NCBI RefSeq assembly: GCF_013282155.1
Contig: NZ_BLWI01000005.1
Span: 1-64,000 of the forward strand
Source: Sulfitobacter sp. HGT1
Lineage (GTDB): Bacteria > Pseudomonadota > Alphaproteobacteria > Rhodobacterales > Rhodobacteraceae
DNA length: 64,000 nucleotides
Direction of reading: 5' to 3'
The position numbers and the translations under genes were made by a program. Under the pieces are notes generated by a model. It was not told the origin of the DNA, searched no databases, and was given only the letters and a program-made list of their open reading frames with translations. Shown here piece by piece: positions 26,080-59,680 of the stretch (within the stretch, counting starts at the first letter, position 1; every line of letters begins with the position of its first letter).

Positions 26080-26997
26080 TTAAAACCTGGATAACACAGC
26101 GTCCAAAAGGTGTTCGGCGGCTCGAGACAGCTGTTTATCTTTTTCCATTATGACAAAATACGGTGAGACCGTGATTGCGCGGTCTAGGTTCAGTGCAATA
26201 AGATTGGCACCCAACGCGGCACTCGTAAGGACGTTGGCAACTTCTTCGGCCAATGTTGCGATGGTATCGGATTGCTCCAGAAGCCCCAACATCACCAGAA
26301 GTGAAGACGTGTTTGTAATGTGAGAAGGGATTTGTGTTCCATTGGCCGCAAAGGCTTCTTCGACCGCGGTGCGTATCGGCGATCCTCGCTCTTGAATTGC
26401 CCATTCAAATTGGGCGAGATCCTCAAGTGATACCTTCGCCTTCTTGACTAGAGGGTGGGAGGCGCGCACCACCAAGGACACCACTTCGGACCGAGCAGGA
26501 CGGATGTAAAAGGCCCGGCTATCGTACTCATGTGGTAACCTAGCAATAATGAAGTCAAAATGACCTTTCTCCAGCCGACGCACAAGTTCTGTCGAAGGGC
26601 CAACCTCAATCGTGGCTTCGAGTTTTGGCGTCGCTTTCTTGATTTCAAGAATAGCGGGCACAAGACAACAAATGGCCGGCCCCGTGACCGACCCAACTTT
26701 GACCTCACCCATTTCTCCCCGCCCCAGGCCCTTTACTTCTGCCTCCAGAGTTTCGAACCCTGAAAGAATTGATTGGGAGTGGCGCACAAAAGCCTCACCG
26801 ATTGGAGTTGGGTACATTCCCTTTGCGGAGCGGATGAATAGGGGAGCCCCAATATCGGTTTCAATTTCAGCTAATGTACGCGACGCCGCCGGCTGTGAAA
26901 GACCGATCGATTCAGCAGCAAATTGCAGCTTCGCAGTCTCAGATATTTTGACAATCAGCTTAAGTTGGTGCGGTTTCAGTTTGCGGGCAAAATTCAC
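26080..26997 (-). CDS. LysR-family regulator, GbpR-like
   Basis: A 305-residue LysR regulator: an N-terminal helix-turn-helix (LKPHQLKLIVKISETAKLQF, FAAESIGLSQPAASRTLAEIE, residues ~7-47) and a periplasmic-binding-like effector domain. The HQLxLI...LQFAAxxxGLSQPAASR style matches GbpR, which controls the chvE/gbp sugar-binding gene in Agrobacterium and Azospirillum. It is divergent from the chvE-type gene with 151 bp between them, the standard arrangement for a LysR activator. The expected effector would be arabinose, galactose or fucose. Confidence 0.88.
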   Translation of the reverse strand: MNFARKLKPHQLKLIVKISETAKLQFAAESIGLSQPAASRTLAEIETDIGAPLFIRSAKGMYPTPIGEAFVRHSQSILSGFETLEAEVKGLGRGEMGEVKVGSVTGPAICCLVPAILEIKKATPKLEATIEVGPSTELVRRLEKGHFDFIIARLPHEYDSRAFYIRPARSEVVSLVVRASHPLVKKAKVSLEDLAQFEWAIQERGSPIRTAVEEAFAANGTQIPSHITNTSSLLVMLGLLEQSDTIATLAEEVANVLTSAALGANLIALNLDRAITVSPYFVIMEKDKQLSRAAEHLLDAVLSRF

Positions 26998-27148
26998 TTT
27001 AAAGACATACCATTATTGTGATGATGAATGTTGTTAGTAGAATTTGTTTGATATGTCGACTGTTGATAGCGTTTTACTTGGGTTCAGTGGGCCCGCAATA
27101 TCAAAACACGCACGTCCAGTAACGATGCGATGTGTCAGGGAGGACACC

Positions 27149-28201
27149 ATGAAACTCACATCACTTTTGGTTTCGGCAACAGCCGCGATTACCTTGGCTA
27201 CCGGGGCTTTTGCGGAAGGTACAGTTGGCATCGCCATGCCTACCAAATCTTCGGCACGTTGGATTTCTGACGGGAATTCAATGGTAAAGCAGTTCGAAGC
27301 AGCTGGTTATTCGGCTGATCTGCAGTATGCCGAGGATGACATTCCCAACCAGTTAGCGCAGATCGAAAACATGATCACCACAGGTGTTGATGTGCTGGTC
27401 ATTGCTGCCATTGACGGGACAACACTGTCGAACGCGTTGGAAAACGCCCATTTCGCCGGCATCAAGGTCATCGCCTATGACCGCCTGATCCGTGACAGCG
27501 CTTATGTCGATTACTATGCGACATTCGACAACTTCAAGGTTGGCGTTCAGCAGGCCTCGTCTCTGGTTACTGGTTTGAAAGAAGGCTTTGGCGACGCACC
27601 TTACAATGTTGAACTTTTTGGTGGTTCGCCCGACGATAACAATGCGTATTTCTTCTACAATGGCGCAATGTCGGTTCTGCAGCCACTGATCGATGACGGT
27701 TCAATCAACATTGTATCTGGCCAGCAGGGTATGGATACTGTGGGTACGTTGCGTTGGGACGGTGCAGTTGCACAGGCCCGCATGGATAACCTGCTGTCAG
27801 CCCACTACACCGACAAAGTACTGCACGGCGTTCTGTCGCCCTATGACGGGTTGTCGATTGGCATCCTCTCGTCGCTGAAAGGCGTCAGCTACGGATCTGG
27901 TGATCTAAAAATGCCCATCGTTTCTGGCCAGGACGCCGAGGTCCCCTCGGTCAAATCCATGCTGGCCGGCGAACAATATTCGACAGTCTTTAAAGACACC
28001 CGTGAATTGGCGCGAGTCACTGTAGGTATGGTTCGGGCCGTGCTGGAGGGTGGCACACCCGAGATCAACAACACCGAAACCTATGACAACGGTGTCAAGG
28101 TCATTCCGTCCTATCTGCTGGAACCGGTATCGGTTGATATCTCCAACTGGGAAGAGACGTTGATTGGGTCCGGTTACTACACCGAAGATCAGATCAAGTA
28201 A
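27149..28201 (+). CDS. chvE: ChvE-type multiple-sugar-binding protein
   Basis: A 350-residue periplasmic binding protein with signal peptide [22 protein letters not shown] followed by [40 protein letters not shown] and [11 protein letters not shown]. These are diagnostic of ChvE, which binds L-arabinose, D-galactose and related aldoses. ATG 27149 has GGGAGGA upstream. The ATPase and permease (gguA/gguB type) follow after a hairpin at 28222-28248. Confidence 0.94.
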
Positions 28202-37258: not shown

Positions 37259-37786
37259 AGGGTGATGTGCAGGAGCAGCCAAGAGCGCCGCAGGCCCACA
37301 ATGCGCGAACGAAGGCCAATGTGAGAGGCTGGAAAATCGATCGGGACCGCTAGGAGAAGGGCAAAAAGTAGGAGCCGGAGGAACAGAAGGAGAAGTCACG
37401 TCAGCGGGATTGAGGACTCGATGGTGATTTCGGGCTGTGAGAGATGAAAACGTGGATCGATGCTCAGGTGGACCTGTCGCGGTTTGATGCCGCTCCTTTG
37501 ATAGCATTTGCTGCATGTATGGATGCCCCATTGGTGCAAGTGATTTTTGAACGGCGCGAGCGTGTGATCGGGTGCGGTCATGTATCAGGCCTCTGTGTGC
37601 GGTGATATTTTGACCGCGGGCCGGTATGGCGATGCGCGGACCAGAGGCATATCAACAAACCGAGCTCGGTGGCTCCTGCACAAATGCTGCTTTCTCTGAC
37701 CCGGATCTGATCGATCCTTTGCCCTTGCTGTTCAGTGACCTCCTCACACCCCCAACTTACCGGGACGTCGTGACTTGCAATCTTCG
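37259..37786. other. Decayed intergenic sequence
   Basis: Between the IS6 and IS110 remnants I see no gene I can support. Short open frames exist on both strands, but none shows a recognisable motif or a ribosome-binding site. Confidence 0.5.
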
Positions 37787-38856
37787 CTACGCCATCGTCG
37801 CCATCGGATTCCGGTAATTCTCTTGTTTCGTCATCATGGCCCAGAGGCCACGCGCCATCTTGTTGGCCAGCGCAATCGCGGCGACCATTCGTGGCTTGCG
37901 GGTCAGCAGGCGCTTCAGCCAGCCATTGTTCGGTGTGTCAAACCGCTCGACAGCCTGAAGGACCGCCATGGCTCCAGAGACCAAGAGGGTGCGGATGTCG
38001 CGGTGACCCATCTTCGAGGTCTTCCCGGGCCGGACCTTGCCGCCCGTCGAGTGCTGCTTGGGCACAAGCCCAAGCCAGGCGGCAAAATCACGACCGCGCC
38101 GGAAAGTGGCCAGGTCTGGTGCAAATGTCTCGATCGCAAGCGCCGTGACAGGGCCCACGCCCGGCATGGTCTGTGCGCGGCGCACCACTTCGGCTTTATT
38201 CGCGGCACACCTCATCCTCGCGTCAAGCTCAGCGACACGCGCATTCAGGCCCTCGATCTGCTCCAGATACATCCGACTGAGTTCCCGCACCTCGGTGTGC
38301 AGCGCGGTGTCATCATCTGCGATTGCATGCGCGAGCGTTTTGAGATGAGCAGGCCCCCACGCTGCGACCAGACCGTGTTCCGCGAGGTGGCCGCGTAAAG
38401 CATTGATCATCTGGGTGCGCTGGCCGACGAACATCTGCCGCGTGCGAAACAGCATGGCACGGGCCTGTTGATCTTCCGTCTTCACCGCAACAACACGCCC
38501 TCTAGGGACATTGCTGCGCAATGCCCTGCCGGGTAATACATGGTTTGACGCAAAGCGGCCTCTACGATGGCCTCTGCATCGGCCACATCGTTATTTTGGC
38601 GTTTGATGAATGGCTTCACATAGACTGGCGGGATCAGGCGCACATCGTGCCCCGCCTCCTCGAATGCCCGCCCCCAACCATGCGCCGTCGCACAAGTCTC
38701 CATGGCGATCAGGCATTTGGGCTGCTGTGCCACGAATGCGAGTAACTGACCGCGTGACAGCTTCTTGCGAAACGCGACCGAACCGTCGCTGCGCGCGCCG
38801 TGCAACAGGAAAACGCGCTTTGCCAAGTCGACACCGATAATAGTGACTTCGGACAT
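37787..38856 (-). pseudogene. IS110-family transposase split by a hairpin element
   Basis: The N-terminal part (from 38856: MSEVTIIGVDLAKRVFLLHG, IAMETCATAHGWGRAFEEAG, KRQNNDVADAEAIVEAAL) is the RuvC-like DEDD domain of IS110. The C-terminal part (to 37787: MPGVGPVTALAIETF, WLGLVPKQHSTGGK, TRKPRMVAAIALANKMAR) is the Transposase_20 domain. Between them, at 38497-38538, a 42-bp hairpin element breaks the frame, so no full protein can be made. Without the insert the two parts would join as one ~340-residue transposase. The element ends are not defined. Confidence 0.88.
38497..38538 (+). repeat. Hairpin element copy B, inside IS110 transposase
   Basis: A 42-bp copy starting GCCCTCTAGGGA and ending CCCTGCCGGGTAATA, with the hairpin CATTGC-TGC-GCAATG. 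It matches copy A along its length with differences mainly in loop and flanks. It splits the IS110 transposase frame. Confidence 0.65.
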
Positions 38857-38900
38857 GGATGCTCCTTCCTTATGTGATTGCGTTTAACACTCATCATAGT

Positions 38901-38929
38901 GGCACATTGCTATGCCGTCGGGAGGGGGC
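38901..38929 (-). repeat. Hairpin element copy E (short), between IS110 and IS3
   Basis: Read on the minus strand it starts GCCCCCTCCCGACGGC and ends AGCAATGTGCC. It has the same left flank as copy C but a shorter hairpin part. It lies 45 bp upstream of the IS110 start and 30 bp before the IS3 orfA start. Confidence 0.4.
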
Positions 38930-39026
38930 ATCCACGCCATCAACAAAGGAGACTGACTATGGGACCTGGAAGAACGGACGAACTCCGGCAAGATGCGGTG
39001 CGCATCGCGCTGACCAGCGGGCTGTA

Positions 39027-39067
39027 CTATTGCCCGGCAGTCGATACGCAGTATCGATGAGAGGGGC
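39027..39067 (-). repeat. Hairpin element copy D
   Basis: On the minus strand: GCCCCTCTC, then the stem ATCGATAC-TGC-GTATCGA, then CTGCCGGGCAATAG. The flanks match the other copies, but the stem sequence differs on both arms while still pairing. It interrupts orfA of the IS3 element. Confidence 0.6.
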
Positions 39068-39088
39068 GCAAGCAGGTGGCTGACGATC

Positions 39089-39131
39089 CATTCCCTGACA
39101 GGGTATTGCGCAGCTATGTCCCGAGAGTGGC
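39089..39131 (-). repeat. Hairpin element copy F
   Basis: On the minus strand: GCCACTCTCGGGACATAGC, loop TGC region, GCAATACCCTGTCAGGGAATG. It is close to copy B. It occupies the junction of a large deletion joining early orfA to orfB of the IS3 element. Confidence 0.6.
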
Positions 39132-39620
39132 AGGCCCCGGATGACCGAAGAGCTGAAGGAGATCGGATTGGATATCGGTCACCGCCGTGTTGGCCGTTTG
39201 ATGCGCCAGAACGGCATATCGGTGGTGCGAACGCGCAAACATAAAGTCACAACGGATAGCAACCACAAGTTCAACATTGCACCAAACCTGCTAGATCGCG
39301 ACTTTGTGGCTGAGAGCCCGAACCAGAAATGGGCTGGTGACATCAGTTACGTCTGGACAGGTGAGGGGTGGCTGTATTTGGCCGTGATCCTGGACCTGCA
39401 TTCCCGACGCGTTATCGGCTGGGCCGTTAGCAATCGCATGAAACGCGACCTGGCGATCCGGGCGTTAAACATTTCTATAGCATTCTGCTCACCGCCCAAA
39501 GGCTGCGTCCATCACACAGATCGTGGGTCGCAATATTGCTCTCACGACTATCAGAAGATCCTGCGCCAACACGGGTTCACCGTGTCCATGAGCGGCAAAG
39601 GGAATTGTTATGATAATGCC

Positions 39621-39664
39621 GCCCCCTCCCGGCAGCATGCTTTGCATGCGCCTGCCGGGCAATG
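39621..39664 (+). repeat. Hairpin element copy C
   Basis: It starts GCCCCCTCCCGGCAGC, has the stem GCATGC-TTT-GCATGC and ends CCTGCCGGGCAATG, with an outer stem CCCGGCAG/CTGCCGGG. Compared with the uninterrupted copy 1 of the IS, it is a clean insertion of about 41 bp with no visible target duplication. Confidence 0.65.
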
Positions 39665-40013
39665 GTCGAGACGTTCTTCAAAACCATCAAGGCTGAACTG
39701 ATCTGGCGGAGGTCATGGGAAACACGGCGGCAGGCCGAGATGGCGATCTTCGACTACATCAACGGCTTCTACAAACCGCGCTGCCGCCACTCAGCACTGG
39801 GCTGGAAAAGTCCCGTCGCTTTCGAACGGAAAGTGGCTTGAACGAGCGCTTGGGGCGGCACAAAAGCGCGACAGGTCCAGTGAACGCCAGCTCTGAAGAA
39901 ACCGTGATCTATACTGGATCGCGGTCCTTAGCTTTGGGGTGGGGAGAGAATAGACCTCATCTTTGATTTTGTCTCTCAGCGAGATCTGTCAACGCTAAGG
40001 CATCTCGGCCTCG

Positions 40014-47292: not shown

Positions 47293-47688
47293 ATGCGGTT
47301 GATGACCATCCCCGGCGTTGGCCCTATTGCAGCCCTCACATTCAAGGCGGCTGTCGACGATCCGAGCCGGTTCAAACGTTCGCGTACAGATGGAGCACAC
47401 TTTGGCCTGACTCCAAGGCGCTTTCAGTCTGGAGAGCATGACAATCCCGGGAGAATATCAAAGGCTGGGGATAGAGATGTTCGCGCAACTCTTTACGCCG
47501 CTGCCAACGCATTGCTCATGCGAACGATGGCAGGGTCACAAATCAAATCATGGGGCATGCGATTGATGCGCACCAAAGGTCGCCGACGCGCTGTAGTTGC
47601 CGTCGCCCGCAAGCTCGCCGTTCTGCTCCACCGTATGTGGATCGACGGCAGTGAATTCCGTCAGGAATCAGTTGGAGGTACGGCATGA
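47281..47688 (+). pseudogene. IS110-family transposase, C-terminal remnant
   Basis: The frame encodes RLMTIPGVGPIAALTFKAAV, FKRSRTDGAHFGLTPRRFQS, SKAGDRDVRATLYAAANALL and ends GTA at 47688. This is the Transposase_20 domain of the IS1111/IS110 family. The catalytic N-terminal half is absent. A diverged piece of the same subfamily lies at 59444-59644. Confidence 0.85.
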
Positions 47689-59443: not shown

Positions 59444-59680
59444 TTAGGGCCGGAAGCTGCATTCGACAGTAAGGGCGGATATCCGACCGGGATTGTCATG
59501 TTCACCTGACTGGTATCGTCTCGGCGTCAGGCCAAAATGCGCGCCAACAGTCCGTGATCGTTTGAAACGCGTCGGGTCGTCGACAGCGGCTTTGAATGTA
59601 AGTGAAGCGATTGCGCCGACGCCTGGAGCTGTCATCATGCGCACCCTTATAAACGAGATGGAAAGACGACGCCTCCCTCA
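59444..59680 (-). pseudogene. IS110-family transposase remnant
   Basis: The minus strand encodes RMMTAPGVGAIASLTFKAAV, then DDPTRFKRSRTVGAHFGLTP, RRYQSGEHDNPGRIS, and breaks off. It is the same subfamily as the remnant at 47281-47688 but diverged. Towards higher coordinates the frame stays open to about 59680, where the transposon end candidate begins. Confidence 0.75.

Follow-up and report, generated by a model that had tools for sequence, protein, structure and literature searches.

The window, the 64-kb stretch of DNA analysed here (positions 1-64000 of contig C5 in a 3.82-Mb genome of 34 contigs), contains what is apparently a nested block of insertion sequences (ISs): an IS110-type transposase gene (37787-38856, minus strand) seated in an IS3 that would be bounded by 37469-37496 and 39852-39879. 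These two plus-strand segments are 86% complementary and are the likely terminal inverted repeats of the IS3, the one at the outer left end of the block and the other at its right end. The IS110-type gene is split by a hairpin at 38498-38538 (plus strand, in common with the hairpins at 475-515 and 39624-39664) into open reading frames 38482-38856 and 37787-38521; its domain matches, DEDD_Tnp_IS110 (E 9e-5, below the cut-off) and Transposase_20 (E 2.5e-21), flank that hairpin. What remains of the IS3-type transposase (38959-39851, plus strand) is the start of orfA and most of orfB, with an internal deletion and three hairpins, the last of which, at 39624, is preceded by rve and HTH_21 matches. 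Near the start of the window, at approximately 300-780 on the plus strand, lies the 3' part of another IS3-type transposase gene, recognised by repeat identity (553-767 is 88% identical to 39665-39879) and by an rve match at 304-480 that falls below the Pfam cut-off; it holds the hairpin at 475-515.

Five hairpins in the window are matched by R1, a covariance model built from 41 hand-picked copies. They are situated in an IS3 orfB remnant, at an internal deletion (475-515, 54.8 bits; the host carries an IS3 label), in the IS110 (38498-38538, 53.9 bits), in IS3 orfA (39028-39065, minus strand, 34.6 bits), at the internal deletion between orfA and orfB of the IS3 (39089-39129, minus strand, 40.7 bits), and in IS3 orfB (39624-39664, 57.5 bits). 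Searched for in 434 kb, they have E-values between 6e-9 and 3e-4; four of the five are R1 training sequences, and 39089-39129 is the sole independent match. A short look-alike at 38901-38929 (minus strand) is unconfirmed as a member: it is absent from the R1 matches at E<=0.05 and from the script scan. The sequence-only reading had described six copies of one design; five fit R1, and the short one falls out. That the copies interrupt IS3 and IS110 transposases, as the same reading stated, is confirmed by IS110 domains on both sides of 38498 and by IS3 domains or blastx labels at the other four.

When the hairpin is left out and its flanks are joined, 15 spanning matches are obtained at 39624 and 13 at 39028, some of them from overlapping loci; in the two spanning matches shown per site, the junction differs by 0 nt (exact) at 39624 and by 1 nt at 39028. 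None spans the joined flanks of 475, 38498, 39089 or 38901-38929. The IS3 sequence is incomplete at the hairpins 475 and 39089; around 475-515 the orfB remnant aligns as two HSPs separated by a 15-residue gap, with ~15-20 codons missing. The location of these two hairpins at internal IS3 deletions is what would be expected if two hairpins in one IS had recombined. Elsewhere the window has a 166-nt inverted repeat (47294-47459 and 59478-59643, 75% complementary, with 12 kb between the arms) and four 35-nt direct repeats within 8 kb (48685, 50399, 52793 and 56293; 66-83% to the reference). No Rfam 15 model matched in the window at gathering score, and the sole hits in one element-bearing locus were two microRNA matches, both sub-threshold and outside the elements.

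Anatomy and spread of the hairpin family

A score-filtered scan yielded 338 hits, which reduce to 232 copies distinct by their flanks; the loci were collected around mostly high-scoring copies, making this a non-random sample. The hairpins are about 37-45 nt in size, with 143 of the 232 at 41 nt (scanned range 35-45), and have fixed ends, CCCTCTC on the left and CTGCCGGGCARTG on the right. The plan is best described on the bottom strand: 5'-CARTG, a 3-bp closing helix (CCC/GGG), a fixed 4x4 internal loop (GGCA/GAGA), a variable stem of 8-10 bp that most often carries a single unpaired base, and a short loop. The stem irregularity seen most often, in 101 of the 196 distinct elements, is one unpaired A in the left arm; 54 of the 196 have none. 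Calculated with RNA energies, the exact plan of 5-nt tail, closing helix, 4x4 loop and stem folds on the bottom strand in 127 of these 196 elements, versus 54 on the top strand.

Pairing is conserved while the stem letters change. There are 152 distinct middles among the 232 copies, and 30 of 33 are distinct within a single genome (G067). All nine stem pairs (9/9) show changes on both sides, and the covariation score is 0.322. Shuffled alignments score 0.083, none of the 500 reaching the observed value, and slid registers give 0.013-0.044. Fitting the alignment to the R1 structure favours pairing, but the shuffled and slid controls still lie far lower. With the closing helix included, 11 of 12 pairs covary, the helix itself contributing four both-side changes. 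The contention that the stem arms change together is thus upheld.

That the hairpins reflect random similarity is a practically negligible possibility. In its favour, parts of the element are unremarkable in isolation: within the window, the CTGCCGGGCAATG core alone is weakly above chance (8 matches versus 3.2 expected) and the left flank alone is at chance (27 versus 21 expected). It is refuted by the stem covariation, by the R1 E-values and by controls with reversed DNA: the raw script hits number 382 in 1.51 Mb versus 15 in the same DNA reversed, and a 21-base core is present in 23 of 295 genomes, with the reversed pattern in 0. Chance resemblance lacking covariation, which the sequence-only reading had named as fatal to its proposal, is therefore not what was found.

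An exact search with the ATTGC stem retrieved 24 stretches from the genome collection, all of them in records titled as Rhodobacterales. Among 295 sampled genomes of the Rhodobacteraceae, the family to which the window belongs, 119 have R1 matches when at most 22 candidates are scored per genome; a class-wide draw found them in 6 of 240 genomes, three of these six outside that family. Deeper scans of six genomes, scoring at most 150 candidates in each, gave 12 R1 copies in G000, 9 in G055, 35 in G262, 42 in G067, 20 in G075 and 43 in G007; the window's own genome, one of the six, is the one with 12. Matches are also present in 108 plasmid records, most commonly of Pseudosulfitobacter, Sulfitobacter, Leisingera and Phaeobacter. 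The exact 21-base core occurs in 0 viral contigs, and phage records contributed nothing beyond two partial weak matches. Searches of open-licence PMC papers listed no earlier description of such an element, and PMC13386836, which deals with the mobile elements of Sulfitobacter (2026), does not mention palindromes or hairpins.

Junctions, target site and host genes

Insertion is precise, without target duplication, and immediately 5' of RAYGR (YCRTY on the other strand). An insert-free homologue could be aligned across the junction for 150 of the 232 copies; in 107 of these cases at least one homologue shows no gap in the 8 nt around the junction, and in a further 39 one shows a 1-nt gap. The target logo reads R A Y G R in the 3' flank, with C as the preceding base in 68%. 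At the protein level, 96 of 149 blastx-labelled copies are spanned by one in-frame match (containing stops in 31 of the 96), 11 by two matches with a gap of 1-44 residues between them, and the other 42 have a one-sided match. Because of the 11 two-match and 42 one-sided copies, deletions or further damage may have occurred at a share of the sites. The length of the hairpin is not divisible by 3 in 201 of the 232 copies, and is divisible in 31.

No core evidently common to junctions and element ends is seen, and this would argue against ordinary site-specific recombination. A clean junction, a fixed short motif and a folded strand with an unpaired base are, by analogy, the outcome that HUH single-strand transposition would leave.

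The host genes are overwhelmingly transposases. Blastx against 21 reference transposases finds a match at the junction for 149 of the 232 copies, with one of the 149 (at locus L047, whose flank is among the 21 references) being a self match, whereas control points 1.5-3 kb and 3-6 kb away are transposase-like in 2.8% of 681 and 1.6% of 798 cases. The corresponding figures are 38.7% at 100-500 nt, 9.4% at 0.5-1.5 kb and 9.3% (15/161) beyond 6 kb, this last bin being, we take it, made up of IS-rich long stretches. When weaker evidence is added, 223 of the 232 copies lie in IS genes: 13 are added by Pfam (some below cut-off), 36 by their similarity to copies already labelled at other loci, and 25 by cluster membership, the weakest ground; overlap between loci may have helped the last two kinds of label. 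Of the sequence-only proposal, both the structure-defined mini-element and its preferential location in transposases are borne out. The nine copies outside recognised IS genes are in two phage-type integrases, beside a RelE gene (one), in a DUF2169 gene (one) and in five settings of unknown type; because there are just nine of them, at most a handful of copies can be intergenic.

The hosts bear the labels IS3, IS5, IS21, IS30, IS66, IS91, IS110 and IS1182, together with Mutator-type and DDE_3-type transposases, which we take to be IS256 and IS630. First Pfam passes, in doubtful frames, had already given almost exclusively transposases among the families listed (25 of 40 in one pass). Orientation relative to the host gene is even (78 to 71); insertions occur all along the genes, and some sites are used repeatedly, with different stems in different genomes. 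Another hairpin lies within 1 kb of 139 of the 232 copies. In the window's own genome all nine flank-distinct script copies are labelled IS (seven directly, two by similarity); its transposase domains, counted for rve and DDE_Tnp_1, amount to 10 and 3 matches, respectively.

Movement and its explanation

The hairpins have moved recently, as is evident from one IS30 gene that is intact in Sulfitobacter sp. SK025, has one hairpin in S. pontiacus BL28 and has two in S. pontiacus S1704, the rest of the compared IS30 copies being ~99% identical. The second hairpin of S1704 has a different stem and the opposite orientation, and it entered a gene already broken by the first. Filled and empty sites and this strain polymorphism bear out the designation of the element as mobile. 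Hairpins also travel with their hosts. One S. pontiacus plasmid has two identical 1241-bp IS3 copies (L207:19643-20883 and 26898-28138), each with a hairpin at the start of orfB and each still annotated as an IS3 transposase; in the window's own genome the 39624 hairpin is common to a second IS3 copy, with 39135-39879 being 98.7% identical over 745 nt. A transposase in G007 (L182:4149-5150) contains three hairpins, and leaving them out restores one open 294-aa frame; other IS copies in this genome share some of the same hairpin sites. Translational bypass or splicing of the hairpins is disfavoured: some other G007 copies are decayed, and hairpin lengths vary.

Such co-travel might suggest that the hairpins are ordinary built-in parts of ISs, spreading with them, and the same hairpin does recur at the same IS position within the genomes of G007, Leisingera aquimarina, S. 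pontiacus W028 and the window's own strain. As the main explanation this is refuted, and we consider it very improbable: insert-free homologues exist for the 150 copies noted above, the intact IS30 has no hairpin, an IS family is entered at many sites, and one site can hold different stems across genomes. The sequence-only reading had itself offered to give way if the hairpin were a normal part of related elements; related IS3, IS5 and IS30 genes without it do exist, and positions and stems vary.

As a candidate mover, Y1_Tnp is encoded by 29 of the 295 genomes, and the hairpin is carried by 20 of these 29 versus 99 of the 266 others (Fisher p=0.001, possibly confounded by IS load). However, of the 11 genomes with 12 or more matches, 9 have no Y1/RAYT genes, among them G067, G262, G075 and G000; the two that have Y1_Tnp are G007, the most loaded with 43 copies, and G064. 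At 12 fetched Y1 loci, clear hairpin copies lie near one and a borderline copy near another. The suggested RAYT/Y1 connection is not supported. The sole clear case is a consensus hairpin in G089 (L094:1983-2023), ~0.6 kb from a Y1 (IS200-type) gene. As the resident mover, RAYT/Y1 is unsupported for most high-copy genomes, yet G007, at the top of the copy-number range, has Y1.

Nor were autonomous, parent or half elements recognised among the lone ends inspected. Lone right ends number 30 versus 18 in reversed DNA, and those listed are full elements with imperfect left ends. Lone left ends number 604 versus 459 reversed (432 versus 350 distinct), of which a small part was looked at individually; exact lone left ends number 17 versus 10 reversed, and the 14 shown include several full elements with variant right ends, the rest being chance-like. 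The nearly all-different stem-loops in each genome are unlike the products of a few recently copied sources.

The reading that we prefer, at a probability of roughly 55%, is that of a non-autonomous mobile hairpin family of Rhodobacteraceae, REP-like and recognised by its structure, that is directed to ISs or retained almost exclusively in them. Its folded single strand would be recognised and joined after a CRTC-like tetranucleotide, much as REP and IS200/IS605 ends are handled, by a putative single-strand-specific enzyme acting in trans. Some cue other than the short motif may steer insertion towards IS DNA, and this is the least certain of the steps; no such cue was found, with the motif equally dense in IS and non-IS DNA and the stems unlike their targets (stem letters match the target neighbourhood with no excess over shuffles, and no guide is visible). 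The consequences would be, in most cases, a transposase frameshift, then repeated insertion into an IS that is already dead, and perhaps deletions where two copies recombine.

Direction towards IS DNA is only moderately favoured over survival. The latter holds that insertion is untargeted, at any RAYGR site, and that copies persist almost only in ISs, where 41 bp of extra DNA would do no harm or even be of use. This is possible, if distinctly less probable than the family described above. The density of RAYGR-type motifs (2.64% in IS flanks versus 2.59% in non-IS window DNA) speaks for it, as do the frequency of close neighbours (139 of 232) and the second hit on a broken IS30, both expected of neutral DNA. 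Marine bacteria are under strong purifying selection, and the survival account fits that general knowledge as well. Against it stands the count of nine copies outside IS genes, although bacterial MITEs normally reside in intergenic DNA (PMC10969869); moreover, the intergenic DNA of the window's own genome, at an assumed ~10%, should far exceed all of its ISs. An account by survival only implies that nearly all intergenic DNA, about a tenth of the genome on that assumption, is intolerant of a 41-bp insert, unlike what that paper reports for MITEs (PMC10969869). A host or plasmid might instead defend itself against transposons by inserting hairpins into ISs, through recognition of transposases or of transposition intermediates. 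The breadth of IS families and positions and the frame-breaking length of most hairpins would suit such a defence, but already broken ISs are hit repeatedly, hairpin-bearing ISs still multiply (the two identical 1241-bp copies in one plasmid), and no linked gene was identified; we judge it unlikely. The same multiplication, and the many copies with a neighbour within 1 kb, tell against the killing of transposases as a purpose of the element. A novel type of hyperparasite or defence, whose machinery recognises ISs as a class, irrespective of family, and repeatedly writes into them hairpins with diversified stems, is possible but doubtful.

For the preferred family, what matters is location. Small palindromic repeats of bacteria are normally found between genes, and this family is the reverse, lying in IS genes and in other genes just a few times. 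Either a small DNA is steered to ISs as a class, or the hairpins document with unusual clarity where bacterial DNA tolerates insertion.

Comparison with known systems

The ends of IS200/IS605 elements, and the miniature forms derived from them, insert without target duplication, have a fixed short flank and form an imperfect hairpin with an unpaired base. The hairpins, too, insert without target duplication beside a fixed short target on one side, and they share the imperfect hairpin with its unpaired base; they differ in that no Y1 gene was found in most high-copy genomes and no left/right end pair was recognised, and in being confined to ISs. Integron attC sites have the core RYYYAAC/GTTRRRY at their ends, and the end letters of the hairpins do not fit this identity.

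Like the REPs of the REP/RAYT (GTAG) system, the hairpins are short imperfect palindromes (~37-45 nt, with covariation, versus 20-40 nt for REPs), non-autonomous, presumably recognised as single strands, and with an unpaired terminal tag. Unlike them, the hairpins have mostly the tag CARTG, and the end CCCTCTC, with the GTAG tag absent; they lie in IS genes (223/232) whereas REPs are extragenic; a cognate flanked Y1 is missing in most genomes; and stems are diverse within a genome. REP copy number usually exceeds 100 per genome (PMC2817692), compared with 9 to 43 hairpins in the six genomes scanned. Tag, location, copy number and RAYT association all fail to agree, and because of this the hairpins are not filed as REPs despite their REP-like anatomy.

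Rickettsia palindromic elements resemble the hairpins as palindromic inserts inside alphaproteobacterial genes; as described in PMC10969869, they are ~150 bp long and make in-frame fusions in metabolic genes, in contrast to hairpins of ~41 nt that are mostly frameshifting (31/232 divisible by 3) and in transposases. Bacterial MITEs, normally intergenic according to the same source (PMC10969869), are likewise small, non-autonomous and mobile, but the hairpin ends are complementary in a 3-bp helix alone, there is no target duplication, and the location is not mainly intergenic.

The CGTC-tagged REPs of Alphaproteobacteria, which according to PMC3733652 apparently have no dedicated transposase, offer a further parallel: both occur in Alphaproteobacteria, both have a CRTC tetranucleotide beside a hairpin, and no mover is identified for either. 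Six roseobacter-type names are absent from the main text of that paper (PMC3733652). For the hairpins, CRTC is target DNA, whereas in CGTC REPs it is part of the element as characterised there; the hairpins are longer, with a closing helix and a 4x4 internal loop, and their ends and stems lack the CGTC tag, the stem starting with AT and the CCA tail. The clean junctions and covarying stems of the present family provide a handle on its mover, perhaps the very one that is missing for the alphaproteobacterial CGTC REPs.
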